A stretch of DNA of 41,471 bases, taken from Nitrospira sp. CG24E. GTDB taxonomy: Bacteria; Nitrospirota; Nitrospiria; Nitrospirales; Nitrospiraceae. The notes under the pieces are model-generated. The model searched no databases and was not told the origin of the DNA. It was given only the letters and a program-made list of their open reading frames with translations. Each line of letters opens with the position of its first letter. The first letter of the stretch is position 1. The translations under genes were made by a program, and so were the position numbers. Below, piece by piece: positions 11,618 through 40,739 of the stretch. The DNA lies in the NCBI GenBank assembly GCA_002869895.2, contig NEWP02000032.1, forward strand, positions 1 through 41,471, in the 5' to 3' direction.

Positions 11618-12667
11618 ATGGAACGTTCTGCCAACGGACAGGCGACATTGCCCCGGCCAGGCGCAAGTCTGAGCGGTCGGCGAGAGAGTGCGATCCTGGT
11701 CGTCGACGACGAAGCGGCTGTCCGGGATCTCTTGGTGAAGCTGCTGCAATCGGCGGGGCATCGTGTGCGTGCGGTTGGAACAGCGCGGGAAGCCCATGCG
11801 GCATTAAAGGTATCGCCCGTATCGCTCCTGATTACTGACGTCAAATTGCCTGACCAAGACGGCATCGCATTGCTCCAGCAGGCCTGCGAGTTGGACCATC
11901 GCATGATGGGCTTGGTGATGACCGGGTATGGCACGGTGGATCTTGCCGTGCAGGCGATGAAGGCAGGAGCGGCGGAGTTTCTCATGAAGCCGTTTGAAAT
12001 AGAGGCGCTGAAGTTGACCGTAAACCGTCTCCTGGATCTGTATCATTTGCGTTCGGAGAACACGGTTCTCAAGCAGGCGGTGGTTCGCGCTACCGGGGTT
12101 CGATTCCGAAGTCTTGCGCTGACCGATTTCGATACGGGCCATCGGTTTGCCGGAGACCAGAGCCTCTCGGACTACGACCAAGGTGTTGCAGAAGGTGAAC
12201 GACGGGCTGCTGCACGAGTGGCGGCAGCCAGACAACAGGAGCAGCAGCTATTGGCCGACGCAGTCCGGCGCTTCGATGATGCGAGGATGTCGCTTCATCA
12301 GTCGGTTGAAGAGGATGTGACAGCCCTGGCCTTCAGCCTGGCGACACGCATCCTGCGCGACACGATGATCGAACGTCAGGATGCCGTGACTGCATTGCTC
12401 AAGTCGGCTCTGGCGACCTTTCGGGAAGCAGGGGTGGTGACCGTGCGAACGCATCCGTCCGATGCCCCAGTCCTTGAAGCGGCTCGCGCTGAGTTATGCC
12501 GAGAGCGACCCCTGTCGTTTGCGCTGCATGTCGAAGGCGATTCGTCTCTCTCCCGGGGAAGTTGTGTGGCTCAATCGACGAATCGACTGGTCGATGCCTC
12601 GCTGGATACGCAGTTGCTGCGACTCGGAGAGGCTTTACAGAAGCGAGGCCTGCGTGAATCTCGTTGA
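11618..12667 (+). CDS. fliH: FliH with an N-terminal response-regulator receiver domain (REC-FliH fusion)
   Basis: This 349-residue protein stands where FliH belongs, between fliG and fliI. Residues about 24-126 form a complete receiver: D30, D31, phospho-acceptor D74 in ITDVKLPDQDG, T102 in VMTGYG and K124 in LMKPF. A helical linker (LLDLYHLRSENTVLKQ, 138-153) follows. FliH sequence starts at YDQGVAEG (186-193), continues as a long helix, and ends in the FliH C-domain with SSLSRGSCVAQSTNRLVDAS and LDTQLLRLGEAL. FliH normally holds the ATPase FliI in check and docks it at the export gate. The reading frame is continuous through the junction. The protein has no tryptophan, so the N-terminal Trp residues that anchor Salmonella FliH to FlhA and FliN are absent. 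It overlaps fliI by 14 bp. Confidence 0.93.
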   Translation: MERSANGQATLPRPGASLSGRRESAILVVDDEAAVRDLLVKLLQSAGHRVRAVGTAREAHAALKVSPVSLLITDVKLPDQDGIALLQQACELDHRMMGLVMTGYGTVDLAVQAMKAGAAEFLMKPFEIEALKLTVNRLLDLYHLRSENTVLKQAVVRATGVRFRSLALTDFDTGHRFAGDQSLSDYDQGVAEGERRAAARVAAARQQEQQLLADAVRRFDDARMSLHQSVEEDVTALAFSLATRILRDTMIERQDAVTALLKSALATFREAGVVTVRTHPSDAPVLEAARAELCRERPLSFALHVEGDSSLSRGSCVAQSTNRLVDASLDTQLLRLGEALQKRGLRESR

Positions 12668-14716: not shown

Positions 14717-15772
14717 ATGAATAGGATGCAGACGAGTCAAGCGGGACGAACGACTCAGGCGAGCCAGGTGAAGAGGCCAGGGGCTCAGGTCGCTGGATCC
14801 AGAATGCCGAACCCTGAACCTCGGATGTTCGATCGCGCTTCCTCCACATGTTCGGCGCCTCGCGCGGCACGGTCTGTCTGGCCGAGAGGGCGGATAGGGG
14901 CTGTCGTTGCCGGGGCCGGACTCATCGTTGCGTTCTCTTGGGCCGTTCAATTCGTTCAAATCACGGCAGAGCAGGGGCTTGCAGGGTGCGGGAGGGCCAT
15001 TTTGGCACAGCTCGATCTAGGATGGACGATAGGTGAGGAAGATAAGCAGAATAGCGCCGCAGGCTGCTCAAAAAGGACTGCCTTTGCGTCAGCCCAACTC
15101 GATCGCGTCAACACGCATCCTTCTCTGAGCAGGCCCGCAGCACGCAAAGAGGCTGGTCCTACGCTTCGGTCCGTTGAGCCTCCGAGCAAAGCGGGAATGC
15201 CGATAGCGGATTTATTGAGCATTCTTTTCGGACCGCAGTCTGTTCATGCCGAAGACGTTGCCTCACGAACGGCCTCGACGGATTCCAACAGGGTATCGGG
15301 CAGTGAGTTGCCTAAACCGGCAGCTGAACCGGTGGAAGGACCGGCGCTCATTGTGCCGGAGGAAATGGTCGCCCTGTTTCAGCAGCGGAAGCAAGACTTG
15401 GAGCGGCGTGAGAATATTGTTCGGACGGCAGAGGGGCGGGTGGCGATTCTCAAAGCCGAAGTCGAGCAGATACTGAATAAGATCGAGGCAGCAGAGCAGC
15501 GTCGTCTCGATCAGGAGAAAGTCTCCGTGGGGCAACAGGCCTCCCAGCGCGAACATGCGGCCGACCTGCGCAAGCAGCATCTAGGGCAACTGGCAAAGAT
15601 TTATGAAAGTATGCCTGCGGAAGAGGCCGCTGCGCGTATCGAACGAATGGCGGATCGGAAAGCGTTGGAGATTCTCCGGCTCCTGAAGAGTAAGTCGGCC
15701 GGGGCCATCCTGGCACAGGTGAAAGTCGATCGAGCGGCTAAGTTGACGGAAGAACTTCTCGCCACTCCTTAG
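14717..15772 (+). CDS. MotE-like flagellar protein (MgtE-N/FliG-like domain)
   Basis: This 351-residue protein has one membrane segment at about 60-80 (RIGAVVAGAGLIVAFSWAVQ), a variable periplasmic or linker region, a coiled coil (about 215-290), and a C-terminal domain with LGQLAKIYESMPAEEAAARI and MADRKALEILRLLKSKSAGA. That domain is the MotE/MgtE-N type. MotE in rhizobia is a chaperone for the motor protein MotC; similar genes sit between fliJ and fliK in many flagellar operons. Its partner here is unknown. The start is uncertain: ATG 14717 has GGGGACC upstream, while 14750-14823 looks like heptamer words (CCGAACC-CTGAACC), so ATG 14825 is possible. The TAG at 15770-15772 abuts element C1. 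Confidence 0.8.
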   Translation: MNRMQTSQAGRTTQASQVKRPGAQVAGSRMPNPEPRMFDRASSTCSAPRAARSVWPRGRIGAVVAGAGLIVAFSWAVQFVQITAEQGLAGCGRAILAQLDLGWTIGEEDKQNSAAGCSKRTAFASAQLDRVNTHPSLSRPAARKEAGPTLRSVEPPSKAGMPIADLLSILFGPQSVHAEDVASRTASTDSNRVSGSELPKPAAEPVEGPALIVPEEMVALFQQRKQDLERRENIVRTAEGRVAILKAEVEQILNKIEAAEQRRLDQEKVSVGQQASQREHAADLRKQHLGQLAKIYESMPAEEAAARIERMADRKALEILRLLKSKSAGAILAQVKVDRAAKLTEELLATP

Positions 15773-29730: not shown

Positions 29731-30492
29731 ATGGATATGACTATGAGCAATACAGCGATGCAACAGACCAGGCAGATCGGCGCCTCGTCCGACTCGCACC
29801 GTGAAACGATCATCAAAGAGTTCGCCTATGTTGTGAAGGCGATGGCCTATAGGTTGGCCTACCGTCTCCCAGCCTATATGGATGCGGAGGACCTGGTGTC
29901 GGTCGGCATCATGGGATTGATGGACGCAATGGATAAGTACGATCCTGGGCGGGAAGCCAAGTTCAAAACCTATGCGGAATTCCGTATCAGAGGCGCCATG
30001 TTGGATGAAATCCGTTCCATGGATTGGATTCCCCGGTCGGTTCACGAGCGGGTTACGTTGTTGCAGCGCGTCCATACCAAACTGTTGAACAGGCTCGGCC
30101 GCCCTCCGACAGATGAGGAAGTTGCGGCAGAGATGAACCTATCTCCGGCCGAACTGGACGACTTTCTGGTGCGGTCCCAGGGAGCCGTCCTGGTCAGCTT
30201 GGACGACATCAACCTGCATGAGCTGGACGGGCCGAAAATTCTCGACATGCTTGCCGACACGCATCATCCGGATCCCCTGGCCATCATCCTCAACGATCAG
30301 GAGCGTGAGCGGGTGGCCGATGCGATTCAGGCATTGCCGGAGAAAGAACGGCTCGTACTGACCATGTACTACTATGAAGAGTTGACGATGAAAGAAATCG
30401 GCAGAATCTTAAAGGTCACGGAGTCTCGCGTCTGTCAGATCCATACGAAAGCGGTGCTGCACCTGAAGGGGAAGCTCACGGTGCCGGCATGA
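29731..30492 (+). CDS. fliA: flagellar sigma factor FliA (sigma-28)
   Basis: FliA directs RNA polymerase to late flagellar genes and is held by FlgM until hook completion. The 253-residue product has region 2 (YMDAEDLVSVGIMGLMDAMD, KYDPGREAKFKTYAEFRIRG, AMLDEIRSMDWIPRSV), region 3 (RLGRPPTDEEVAAEMNLSP) and region 4 with EELTMKEIGRILKVTESRVC. ATG 29731 follows GCGGGGAA at a longish distance; ATG 29743 is an alternative. It ends the operon begun at fliL. Confidence 0.97.
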   Translation: MDMTMSNTAMQQTRQIGASSDSHRETIIKEFAYVVKAMAYRLAYRLPAYMDAEDLVSVGIMGLMDAMDKYDPGREAKFKTYAEFRIRGAMLDEIRSMDWIPRSVHERVTLLQRVHTKLLNRLGRPPTDEEVAAEMNLSPAELDDFLVRSQGAVLVSLDDINLHELDGPKILDMLADTHHPDPLAIILNDQERERVADAIQALPEKERLVLTMYYYEELTMKEIGRILKVTESRVCQIHTKAVLHLKGKLTVPA

Positions 30493-30576: not shown

Positions 30577-30656
30577 ATTCGTTCTACCCCGCTGATGCCC
30601 GTTTCTGCCCGTCCCGCGCTTCTCAAGTCTGCTCCGAAATCAACCGAAACACTTGC

Positions 30657-31364
30657 ATGGGCAATCTCCCCGTCATGTCTCCTCTTGTGGCGGTCATAGC
30701 GCTTTGTATCATCAGTCTCTTGCTGCTTGGAGGACTGTGGCTGCAGGGGCGGAAATTGAGCCTGGGATCCCATCGAGACCGATCCACGGGTGCAACGACC
30801 GAACCGCCGACTGCCTATGACTACGTGACGGGTTTGCCGACCGGACGATTGTTCGGGACGTTACTCGAACAGGCAGTCGATCGCGCGGAACGAACCGGTC
30901 GATCTCTCGCGTTGCTGGTGGTGGAGCTGGATCACTTCCGGATGGTGGCAGAGAGTCAAGGCCAAGCGAATGGTAACGTGCTCGTGCGTGTCCAGGCAGC
31001 CAGGGTTAAGGGTGTCCTCCGCTCCACAGAAACGGTTGCGCGTTTGGCGCAGGATCAGCTCGCTATGATTCTGGATAATTTCAGCTCCCCTCAGGAAGTG
31101 ACGGCCATTGTGGAAAAGCTCCAGGCCACGGTGGGGCTTCCGCTCACTCTGGAGGGTCAAGAGCTGTTCCTGACCTGCCGTATCGGCATCGCATTCTATC
31201 CACAAGACGCCAGAGAACATGAGGGATTGATCGATCAGGCCATGCGGGCGCTGAAAACGGCGAAGTCCGAGGGGCAGGCTGTTCGGTTTGCTTCGCCTAT
31301 TCCTGTTATGTCCTCCTCTGACCCAGTGTCCACGCCTTCCCCCTTCGCAAACCTCCTTCGGTAA
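30657..31364 (+). CDS. membrane-anchored degenerate GGDEF-domain protein
   Basis: This 235-residue protein has one membrane helix at about 8-29 and a GGDEF-type fold from about residue 52. The fold start DYVTGLPTGRLFGTLLEQA and LALLVVELDHFRMVAESQGQ match the family, but the active-site GGDEF is AQDQL (residues 131-135) and the RxxD inhibitory site reads RSTE, so it cannot be a normal diguanylate cyclase. It may bind a nucleotide or act as a protein-interaction module. No clear ribosome site precedes ATG 30657; ATG 30675 is possible. It sits alone between fliA and flgF. Confidence 0.8.
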   Translation: MGNLPVMSPLVAVIALCIISLLLLGGLWLQGRKLSLGSHRDRSTGATTEPPTAYDYVTGLPTGRLFGTLLEQAVDRAERTGRSLALLVVELDHFRMVAESQGQANGNVLVRVQAARVKGVLRSTETVARLAQDQLAMILDNFSSPQEVTAIVEKLQATVGLPLTLEGQELFLTCRIGIAFYPQDAREHEGLIDQAMRALKTAKSEGQAVRFASPIPVMSSSDPVSTPSPFANLLR

Positions 31365-31817: not shown

Positions 31818-32588
31818 ATGAACCGAGCAGTCTATCCCATTCTTTCCGGCGCATTGGCGCAAGAACGTCAGATGCAGGTCTTCGCCAATAATATGGCGAA
31901 CGTCAATACGGCCGGCTTTAAACAGGACAATCAGGCGTTCAAGGCTGTGATGGCTCGCGCGCAGGTTGCTGCGCAGGCCTTCGCTCATCCAGTCGGCTTC
32001 GGTCAGCAGATCGGTGTCCGTCCGTTCGGCCCATCCGAGCGGGTATTCTCGTCGCCCCACGCAGTCCGCACGTCCTTCGAGGCAGGCCGGATCAGAATCA
32101 CCGGGAATCCTCTCGATGCGGCGATTCAGGGAAGCGGATTTTTCGAAATCCAGACTCCTCAGGGGACTCGCTATACCAGGAGCGGCATGTTCACGCTGGA
32201 CTCGCAGCGCCGGCTGGTTACGAATCTGGGGTATCCGGTCATGGGCACAAAGGGAGAGATCAAGATTCCGCCCGGTACGGTCCAGGTGAGTTCGCAAGGA
32301 GCGATTCACGTCGATGGCCAACCGGTGGCGACGCTTAAAGTAATGGATTTTCCCGCAGATCACATGCCGGAGAAACATCTCGAAGGGCTGTTTGCGTCGG
32401 ATTCCGCCCACCCGGCGAAGAATCCCCAAGTTCAAGGGGGCCATATCGAAGAGTCGAACGTCAATTCAATCGGTGAGATGGTCAAAATGATCCAGGGTAC
32501 CAGAAACTACGAGTCGGCGCAGAAGATGATTCAGACATTGGACCATATGGCAGAAGTCGCGATTCGAGAGGTCGGCCGAGTGCTATGA
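31818..32588 (+). CDS. flgF: flagellar basal-body rod protein FlgF
   Basis: FlgF is a rod subunit between the proximal and distal rod. The 256-residue product has the N-terminal motif VFANNMANVNTAGFKQDNQA, the FlgE/F/G-like domain with IQGSGFFEIQTPQGTRYTRS, and the C-terminal ESNVNSIGEMVKMIQGTRNY. ATG 31818 follows GAAGAGGA. The sigma-54 promoter upstream suggests it begins the flgF-flgG-flgA-flgH-flgI unit. Confidence 0.96.
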   Translation: MNRAVYPILSGALAQERQMQVFANNMANVNTAGFKQDNQAFKAVMARAQVAAQAFAHPVGFGQQIGVRPFGPSERVFSSPHAVRTSFEAGRIRITGNPLDAAIQGSGFFEIQTPQGTRYTRSGMFTLDSQRRLVTNLGYPVMGTKGEIKIPPGTVQVSSQGAIHVDGQPVATLKVMDFPADHMPEKHLEGLFASDSAHPAKNPQVQGGHIEESNVNSIGEMVKMIQGTRNYESAQKMIQTLDHMAEVAIREVGRVL

Positions 32589-36402: not shown

Positions 36403-36738
36403 ATGATCAGCTCAATTGGAAGTCTAGCCGAGGCCCAGTTTAGCCTCTTGCAAGCTCCTCAGATTCAGACTCAGACCCAGAATCGGCCTGGTCAGCTGGC
36501 TGCTCTTAACGATGCAGCCCATGAATTCGAAGCCTACTTCATCTCTAATCTATTGAAAGTTATGAGGGAAACGGTTCCGAAAGGAGCACTCGAGAACAAG
36601 GGAGGGGCCTATTTTTACTCCTTTTATGACCAGGAGATTGGTCGATTGTCTGCCCAAGCGGGGGGGCTTGGTCTGGCAAGAATGATTCATGAGTACACAG
36701 AAAAAATGCTCCCTCCCTCAAGTTCTAAGGGCCGATAG
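36403..36738 (+). CDS. flgJ: rod-cap protein FlgJ, N-terminal domain only
   Basis: This 111-residue protein corresponds to the rod-binding/capping domain of FlgJ: LAALNDAAHEFEAYFISNLL, KVMRETVPKGALENKGGAYF and YDQEIGRLSAQAGGLGLARM. The peptidoglycan hydrolase domain found in enterobacterial FlgJ is absent; a separate hydrolase must open the wall. The upstream spacer (36350-36402) is unusually AT-rich compared with the rest of the window. The ribosome site is weak (TGAAGA). Confidence 0.93.
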   Translation: MISSIGSLAEAQFSLLQAPQIQTQTQNRPGQLAALNDAAHEFEAYFISNLLKVMRETVPKGALENKGGAYFYSFYDQEIGRLSAQAGGLGLARMIHEYTEKMLPPSSSKGR

Positions 36739-36745
36739 CCGATAC
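36718..36745 (+). promoter_or_regulatory. candidate sigma-28 promoter for flgM
   Basis: TCAAGTTC (36718-36725), 12 bases, then GCCGATAC (36738-36745) resembles the FliA consensus TAAAGTTT-N11-GCCGATAA with one extra base of spacing. It overlaps the flgJ stop and lies about 140 bp before flgM, which in other bacteria is autoregulated through FliA. Confidence 0.4.
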
Positions 36746-40665: not shown

Positions 40666-40739
40666 CTTCCAAGGTTAAGTTTCGACTGCAAATGCCGAGA
40701 TAGTCTGGTGGACGATTCAGAATATATTGGACTGCAAGG

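Follow-up and report, generated by a model that had tools for sequence, protein, structure and literature searches.

A degenerate GGDEF membrane protein encoded between fliA and flgF in Nitrospira and its relatives, preceded by a sigma-28-like promoter box

The gene in the fliA-flgF interval and its distribution

The window analysed here is the whole 41,471-nucleotide stretch of contig NEWP02000032.1 from Nitrospira sp. CG24E (Nitrospiraceae), and the gene in question encodes a membrane protein with a degenerate GGDEF domain (Table 1). An earlier reading of the letters alone (the sequence-only reading) had located the gene between fliA and flgF, and Pfam assignment of the two neighbours as a FliA-type sigma factor and FlgF agrees with this. 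The surrounding flagellar cluster also encodes FliE, FliF, FliG, a fusion of a receiver domain with FliH (REC-FliH), FliI, FliJ, FliL-FliP, FliR and FlhB; further Pfam assignments are FlgA, FlgH, FlgI, FlgM, FlgN, FlgK and a flagellin-domain protein. The product consists of a hydrophobic helix (about residues 6-29), a linker, the GGDEF domain (residues 53-207) and a short tail. The signature of the GGDEF fold is retained, as had been proposed: PF00990 matched with E=1.6e-28 (99.9 bits; cut-off 23.8) and was the sole Pfam match at E up to 1. The peak 19-residue hydrophobic stretch starts at about residue 6, with a mean Kyte-Doolittle (KD) value of 2.83. The AlphaFold2 (AF2) model, built from three sequences, reached a predicted local distance difference test score (pLDDT) of 40 and a predicted template modelling score (pTM) of 0.27, and is informative for the membrane helix only.

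The stretch upstream of flgF was taken from most flagellates of the family; genomes, loci and genera are labelled G, L and g, respectively. Near full-length orthologues with 64-87% identity were found in 16 of the 31 other genomes of the window's genus (61 genomes in the first search), and none of the 17 copies of this genus has a stop within the match. The nearest named orthologue (87% identity) is from Nitrospiraceae bacterium WB-IL-04, a metagenome-assembled genome (L039). The family search gave matches at E<=1e-32 in 75 of 175 genomes, carriers of the much larger GGDEF-EAL proteins described below counted in; flgF was detected at E<=1e-50 in 127 of the 175. The short form, termed the reduced gene, occurs in the fliA-flgF interval in 63 genomes from genera g1, g3, g6, g22 and g26, the window's own copy included. 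A gene at this position is common in this family, and the view that such a gene is unusual there was not upheld. The stretch taken includes fliA for 61 of the 63 reduced copies; in four g6 genomes (G160, G163, G164 and G185) flgF is farther off and the reduced gene still adjoins fliA. Kept out of the 63 were the duplicate loci L036 and L038, the three GGDEF-EAL loci, and six further degenerate copies (L157, L163-L167), among which L163 may be assembly contamination. The membrane helix of L124 is out of frame with the domain (best KD 0.7).

The fliA tree comprised 112 rows, with the reduced gene in 64, nothing in 45 and the long version in 3. This pattern needs 8 state changes, compared with a mean of 38 under shuffling. 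The gene is present in all 27 rows of g22 and g26; absences are frequent in g6 and also occur in g1 (G026, G013 and G019). No fliA match was found in the stretches taken from flagellates of the order outside the family (G050, G057, G060, G048 and G055). The degenerate GGDEF gene is old and widespread in the family and not a case of local decay; intact orthologues at the same address, which would have pointed to a recent decay in this strain, were searched for, and none of the 63 copies has a GGDEF motif.

Table 1. Position of the gene, its parts, its neighbours and the promoter-like boxes
Feature	Position	Strand	Basis or remark
Degenerate-GGDEF membrane protein gene, 235 aa	30657..31364	+	Start codon uncertain: ATG 30657 or 30675
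Transmembrane helix, about residues 6-29	30672..30743	+	Hydropathy; AF2 helix 9-33 in poor model
GGDEF-fold domain, residues 53-207	30813..31277	+	Pfam
RVQAARVK, residues 111-118, candidate docking surface	30987..31010	+	R111, A114, A115, R116, K118 invariant in 63/63 copies
Former inhibitory site (I-site), RSTE replacing RxxD, residues 122-125	31020..31031	+	Sequence
Former catalytic motif, AQDQL replacing GGDEF, residues 131-135	31047..31061	+	Sequence
Sigma-28 (FliA)-like box, CAAG-N16-CCGAAA	30624..30649	+	Spacing and place conserved upstream of orthologues
fliA (sigma-28), upstream neighbour	29731..30492	+	Pfam
flgF, downstream neighbour	31818..32588	+	Pfam
Second match to sigma-28-like box, 5' of flgM (36888)	36719..36744	+	Pattern match
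DUF3391-HD-GYP gene (L233, L241), same contig beyond the window	G000:C26:44644-45936	-	Sigma-28-like box 5'

Catalytic residues, conserved columns and selection

The replacement of the catalytic motif by AQDQL was confirmed in the window protein, and the family shows 27 motif forms at this place (AERTF in 15 copies, GDRRF in 8 and AQDQF in 6, among others). Conserved columns were compared between the 63 copies and 53 paralogue rows (G[DE]EF in 49). The positions D90, D92, N98, D99, D107, K203 and the GGDEF motif are near-invariant in the paralogues and variable in the 63 copies; the exceptions there, largely conserved, are R129 and the final F of the motif. The columns of D90, D92, N98 and D107, which we take to be the metal and guanine residues, read E, D, A and N in the window protein, with only D92 kept. 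The features of an active diguanylate cyclase, a GG(D/E)EF active site (A-site) together with the metal and guanine residues, are therefore missing from this protein. These sequences suggest that it is very probably non-catalytic, and a c-di-GMP-independent regulator of motility, as first proposed, is plausible.

The same proposal had also named substrate binding, which agrees poorly with substrate columns that vary across the copies. Binding of GTP or another nucleotide without turnover seems highly improbable. In the window's genus the motif still has an acidic third residue (e.g. AQDQL and TPEQF), which, together with the D92 retained in the window protein, could suit a nucleotide ligand. 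Against this, the columns for metal binding and guanine recognition vary, and 37 of the 45 copies from genera other than g1 and g3 have R or Y as the third residue.

Other positions have become fixed. R111, A114, A115, R116, K118, P61, R64, L65, P162, E169, G177 and A195 are invariant in 63/63 copies; four of these, R64, A115, K118 and E169, belong to the columns that vary most among those compared in the paralogues. The spacing of R111, A115, K118 and R122 would place them on one face of the helix that precedes the I-site. The loss of the I-site itself, claimed earlier, holds for the window protein (RSTE) but not for the family, where RxxD is present in 35 of 63 copies and RxxE in 9. A receptor role, also conceivable for degenerate GGDEF proteins of the CdgI type, would have the old I-site bind c-di-GMP and the protein signal this state to the flagellum; the kept RxxD motifs and the position of R111, A115 and K118 on a helix running into the I-site are consistent with such a receptor. 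Nevertheless, RxxD is absent from the window protein and from 28 of the 63 copies, nine of which read PxxN or PxxH, and R111, A114, A115, R116 and K118 are invariant whereas RxxD varies. We regard the receptor as an unlikely general explanation; such a role is possible in relatives and unlikely in the window protein.

The median ratio of nonsynonymous to synonymous substitution rates (dN/dS) in the window's genus was 0.116 for the domain and 0.194 for the whole gene, compared with 0.097 for fliA and 0.099 for flgF; the helix region (0.43) and the tail (0.68) evolve faster. Since the value of the domain is near those of fliA and flgF, the domain is under purifying selection, and catalysis cannot be the reason. 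That the gene is a functionless, decaying remnant of a GGDEF-EAL enzyme is very unlikely and is largely refuted by the selection data. The missing catalytic residues, the eight state changes on the fliA tree, the fast-evolving helix region and tail and an in-frame stop in the G093 match would suit a relic; whereas the stop-free matches of the 17 genus copies, the full invariance of residues that vary in paralogues and a promoter box that stays with the gene would not.

The sigma-28-like promoter box

A TCAAGTC...CCGANA box occurs in every one of the 16 g1 upstream regions for which the stretch includes fliA, and the pattern [CT][ACT]AG-N16-CCGANA was found upstream of 57 of 64 genes, three long ones included; L010 and L053, without fliA in the stretch, were left out of these counts. 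Mononucleotide shuffles gave an expectation of 0.49, and other spacings gave 0-2 matches. The box was found in 1 of 64 gaps between this gene and flgF at the same loci, and in 1 of 44 fliA-flgF gaps without the gene. Conserved -35 and -10 elements, a fixed spacing and co-occurrence with the gene, as expected of a FliA regulon member, were all found, and a putative control of the box by FliA is supported by these sequence comparisons. An initial form of the pattern matched the window twice, with 2.2 matches expected, and significance came only through the comparison of orthologues.

The box resembles the E. coli FliA sites of flgKL, ycgR and yhjH, with one base more between the elements by count (PMC4183435; this and the other papers cited are represented here by excerpts). 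With a stricter pattern, the genome G074 has three matches genome-wide and 0 for the reversed control; these precede the degenerate GGDEF gene, another DUF3391-HD-GYP gene and, by eye, a PAS-histidine-kinase-like gene. The assignment of L238 as chemoreceptor-like was dropped in favour of PAS- and histidine-kinase-like stretches, which were recognised by eye only, without a family search. In the genome of the window, 4 of 22 box matches sit on the 68-kb flagellar contig, where the box also precedes a stretch with a cheY-like open reading frame (ORF; by eye).

The -10-like element before the gene ends 7 nt 5' of the ATG (region 30644-30657, + strand) and is likewise arranged in L003. Being so close to the ATG, it suggests that the message may be leaderless in both; in the other congeners the distance from box to domain is about 105-155 nt longer. 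The start codon is uncertain because ATG 30657 is only 7 nt past the end of the putative box. A sigma-28-like box with a spacing of 15 was also noted at 40676-40700 (+), before a CsrA-like and then a FliW-like ORF (by eye).

The timing implied by the box bears on a comparison with FipA, a membrane protein with a single helix by which FlhF is positioned at the cell pole. The FipA gene lies downstream of an operon with flhA, flhF, flhG, fliA and chemotaxis genes, and the excerpt describes a single-helix membrane topology (PMC11620751). The position after flhF-flhG-fliA and the single helix with a cytoplasmic domain are similar here; whereas FipA carries a DUF2802 domain (PMC11620751) and the window protein a GGDEF domain. 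A search for DUF2802 in 41 genomes gave no match, and the search's own controls also went undetected. Moreover, a sigma-28-like promoter implies late expression, after placement, and the gene is absent from 45 of the 112 fliA loci. A FipA-like polarity factor is thus quite unlikely.

Probable origin and proposed role

Intact versions at the fliA-flgF address were found in only three genomes, G071 (g24) and G193 and G196 (g30), where a frame of 815-875 residues encodes a much larger protein with an intact GGDEF motif and an EAL domain. The Pfam assignments are for the proteins of G071 and G196, and the G193 protein is 82% identical to that of G196; the Cache match in these proteins is below its cut-off. 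G071 has one more gene in the interval besides the GGDEF-EAL gene. When the window protein was compared with these three genomes, the GGDEF-EAL protein of the locus was the top of 12, 14 and 15 matches, respectively, and the alignments begin at query residue 13-16, within the membrane helix. The other matches listed all begin at residue 39 or later apart from two in G033, the reduced copy and a weak match that starts at 25. The tblastn alignments begin at query residues 11 and 12 for two of the GGDEF-EAL proteins and only at 54 for that of G193. The sequence-only reading was right that a membrane anchor exists; its suggestion that the anchor was added is less likely than retention from a larger ancestor, because the GGDEF-EAL alignments begin inside the helix. 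Of the 63 copies, 37 have two hydrophobic stretches ahead of the domain, and those of g1 have a single one; this fits a stepwise loss of a periplasmic part.

The GGDEF domain tree contained 64 rows after eleven remote paralogues were removed from 75. The reduced form makes one clade (22/22 representatives, support 100/100), which falls in a 30-row set (99/93) together with the three GGDEF-EAL proteins and five other family paralogues. A grouping of the reduced clade with the three GGDEF-EAL proteins is neither rejected nor supported by the p-value of the approximately unbiased test (p-AU 0.29), so that the tree is neutral. Descent from the long form is favoured because of the same place, the membrane helix and the best-match rank, and the GGDEF-EAL membrane protein of the locus is the probable unreduced form.

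These comparisons suggest the following scenario. The fliA-flgF interval would first have encoded an inner-membrane protein of greater length, which combined a Cache-like sensor with GGDEF and EAL domains. Its periplasmic sensor and EAL domain were probably lost in the family's main flagellate lineages; the GGDEF domain would have lost its catalytic motif and other substrate residues, leaving one or two membrane helices and the GGDEF fold. Since a sigma-28-like promoter precedes the gene, it is probably turned on by FliA late in flagellar assembly, if the conserved box is active. The protein would then probably act through contact with another protein on the cytoplasmic side of the inner membrane, with the invariant helix RVQAARxK and its surroundings as the contact site; in motile cells it would thereby retain or adjust a c-di-GMP protein or a motor protein. 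A FliA-timed, catalytically dead GGDEF membrane adaptor that acts by protein contact is somewhat better than an even prospect in our judgement.

The first-choice candidate partner is the DUF3391-HD-GYP protein whose gene has the same box, because contacts of GGDEF proteins with each other and with the HD-GYP protein RpfG have precedents. Of 30 loci read, 24 carry the box upstream of this gene, with 0.3 expected, and the GYP motif of the protein reads GFP in 24 of the 30. The HD-GYP gene occurs in 123 of the 175 family genomes, which include both carriers and non-carriers of the degenerate GGDEF gene; G026 and G013 (L242, L243), both lacking the latter, also have the box at the HD-GYP gene. A strict partnership was therefore dropped, and the gene is regarded as a cluster resident. 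A more specific proposal is doubtful, in which a FliA-timed dead-GGDEF scaffold would dock DUF3391-HD-GYP (or another c-di-GMP enzyme) at the flagellar base for a local motor setting, and a pseudo-enzyme with a separate HD-GYP protein would have replaced the GGDEF-EAL enzyme.

Several points weigh against the adaptor. The gene is dispensable, as the 45 absences and 8 changes among the 112 fliA loci indicate, and the orthologue in G093 has the in-frame stop within its match. The box is unspecific in its own genome (22 matches; 14 for the reversed control), and since its pattern was drawn from the same alignments, more weight is put on the controls than on 57/64 alone. The trees name no single sister of the reduced clade: the best tree joins it with L153 and L172 at 57/48, and the clade forced together with the locus GGDEF-EAL proteins gave p-AU 0.29, with the paralogue L176 0.51. 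Exposure of the RVQAARxK helix was deduced from spacing because the structure model is poor (pLDDT 40). The partner is a candidate, and the adaptor as a whole is a proposal read from sequence.

Degenerate GGDEF domains of the E. coli proteins CdgI and CsrD contact other GGDEF proteins (PMC5635695). The window protein is similar in its degenerate domain; it differs in its sigma-28-like box and lost I-site, and a link to a flagellar cluster is not mentioned in the available text on CdgI and CsrD (PMC5635695). The Xanthomonas GGDEF proteins XC_0249 and XC_0420 bind RpfG and change motility independently of cyclase activity (PMC3749722), which recalls the HD-GYP gene with the same box on this contig. 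However, both are active enzymes, act on pili and need DxD (PMC3749722); only [DE]x[DE] is found here, in 42 of the 63 copies, and the HD-GYP contact is a candidate one. FliA-linked transcription, expected here for the GGDEF-EAL form, is also found in the c-di-GMP proteins PdeH/YhjH and BifA; these are phosphodiesterases (PMC4183435, PMC5300878), whereas the reduced form lacks EAL.

By its sequence, the window protein is a family-wide, FliA-linked pseudo-enzyme within the known class of degenerate GGDEF proteins. The domain of the Caulobacter protein TipF is a degenerate EAL domain. TipF is likewise a c-di-GMP adaptor tied to flagellum formation; it differs in binding c-di-GMP and acting in the initiation of assembly, according to the excerpt (PMC10212136). 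A full-text literature search, judged by title and start of abstract, found no description of the present protein. An enzyme has apparently become a non-enzyme at one fixed genomic address, and its probable unreduced form persists in relatives. The alignment names R111, A114, A115, R116 and K118 as the successor residues, so that a GGDEF function without c-di-GMP is directly testable. For the Nitrospira-related bacteria, which are nitrifiers, the findings point to a level of motility control that is so far undescribed.

The REC-FliH fusion of the window (11618-12664, + strand) had been suggested as a feature that might co-occur with the gene. Most flagellates of the family have a listed match that extends over both parts, including ones without the gene (G026, G019, G013, G104, G065 and G187), and the association is unspecific; the best match is only about 1e-27 to 1e-30 in G071, G193, G196 and G034. 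A 351-residue ORF between fliJ and fliK (14717-15769, +) was without a Pfam match at 1e-4. About 200 bases (12462-12664, +) are shared between REC-fliH and the fliI ORF as listed; the true fliI start is probably later.
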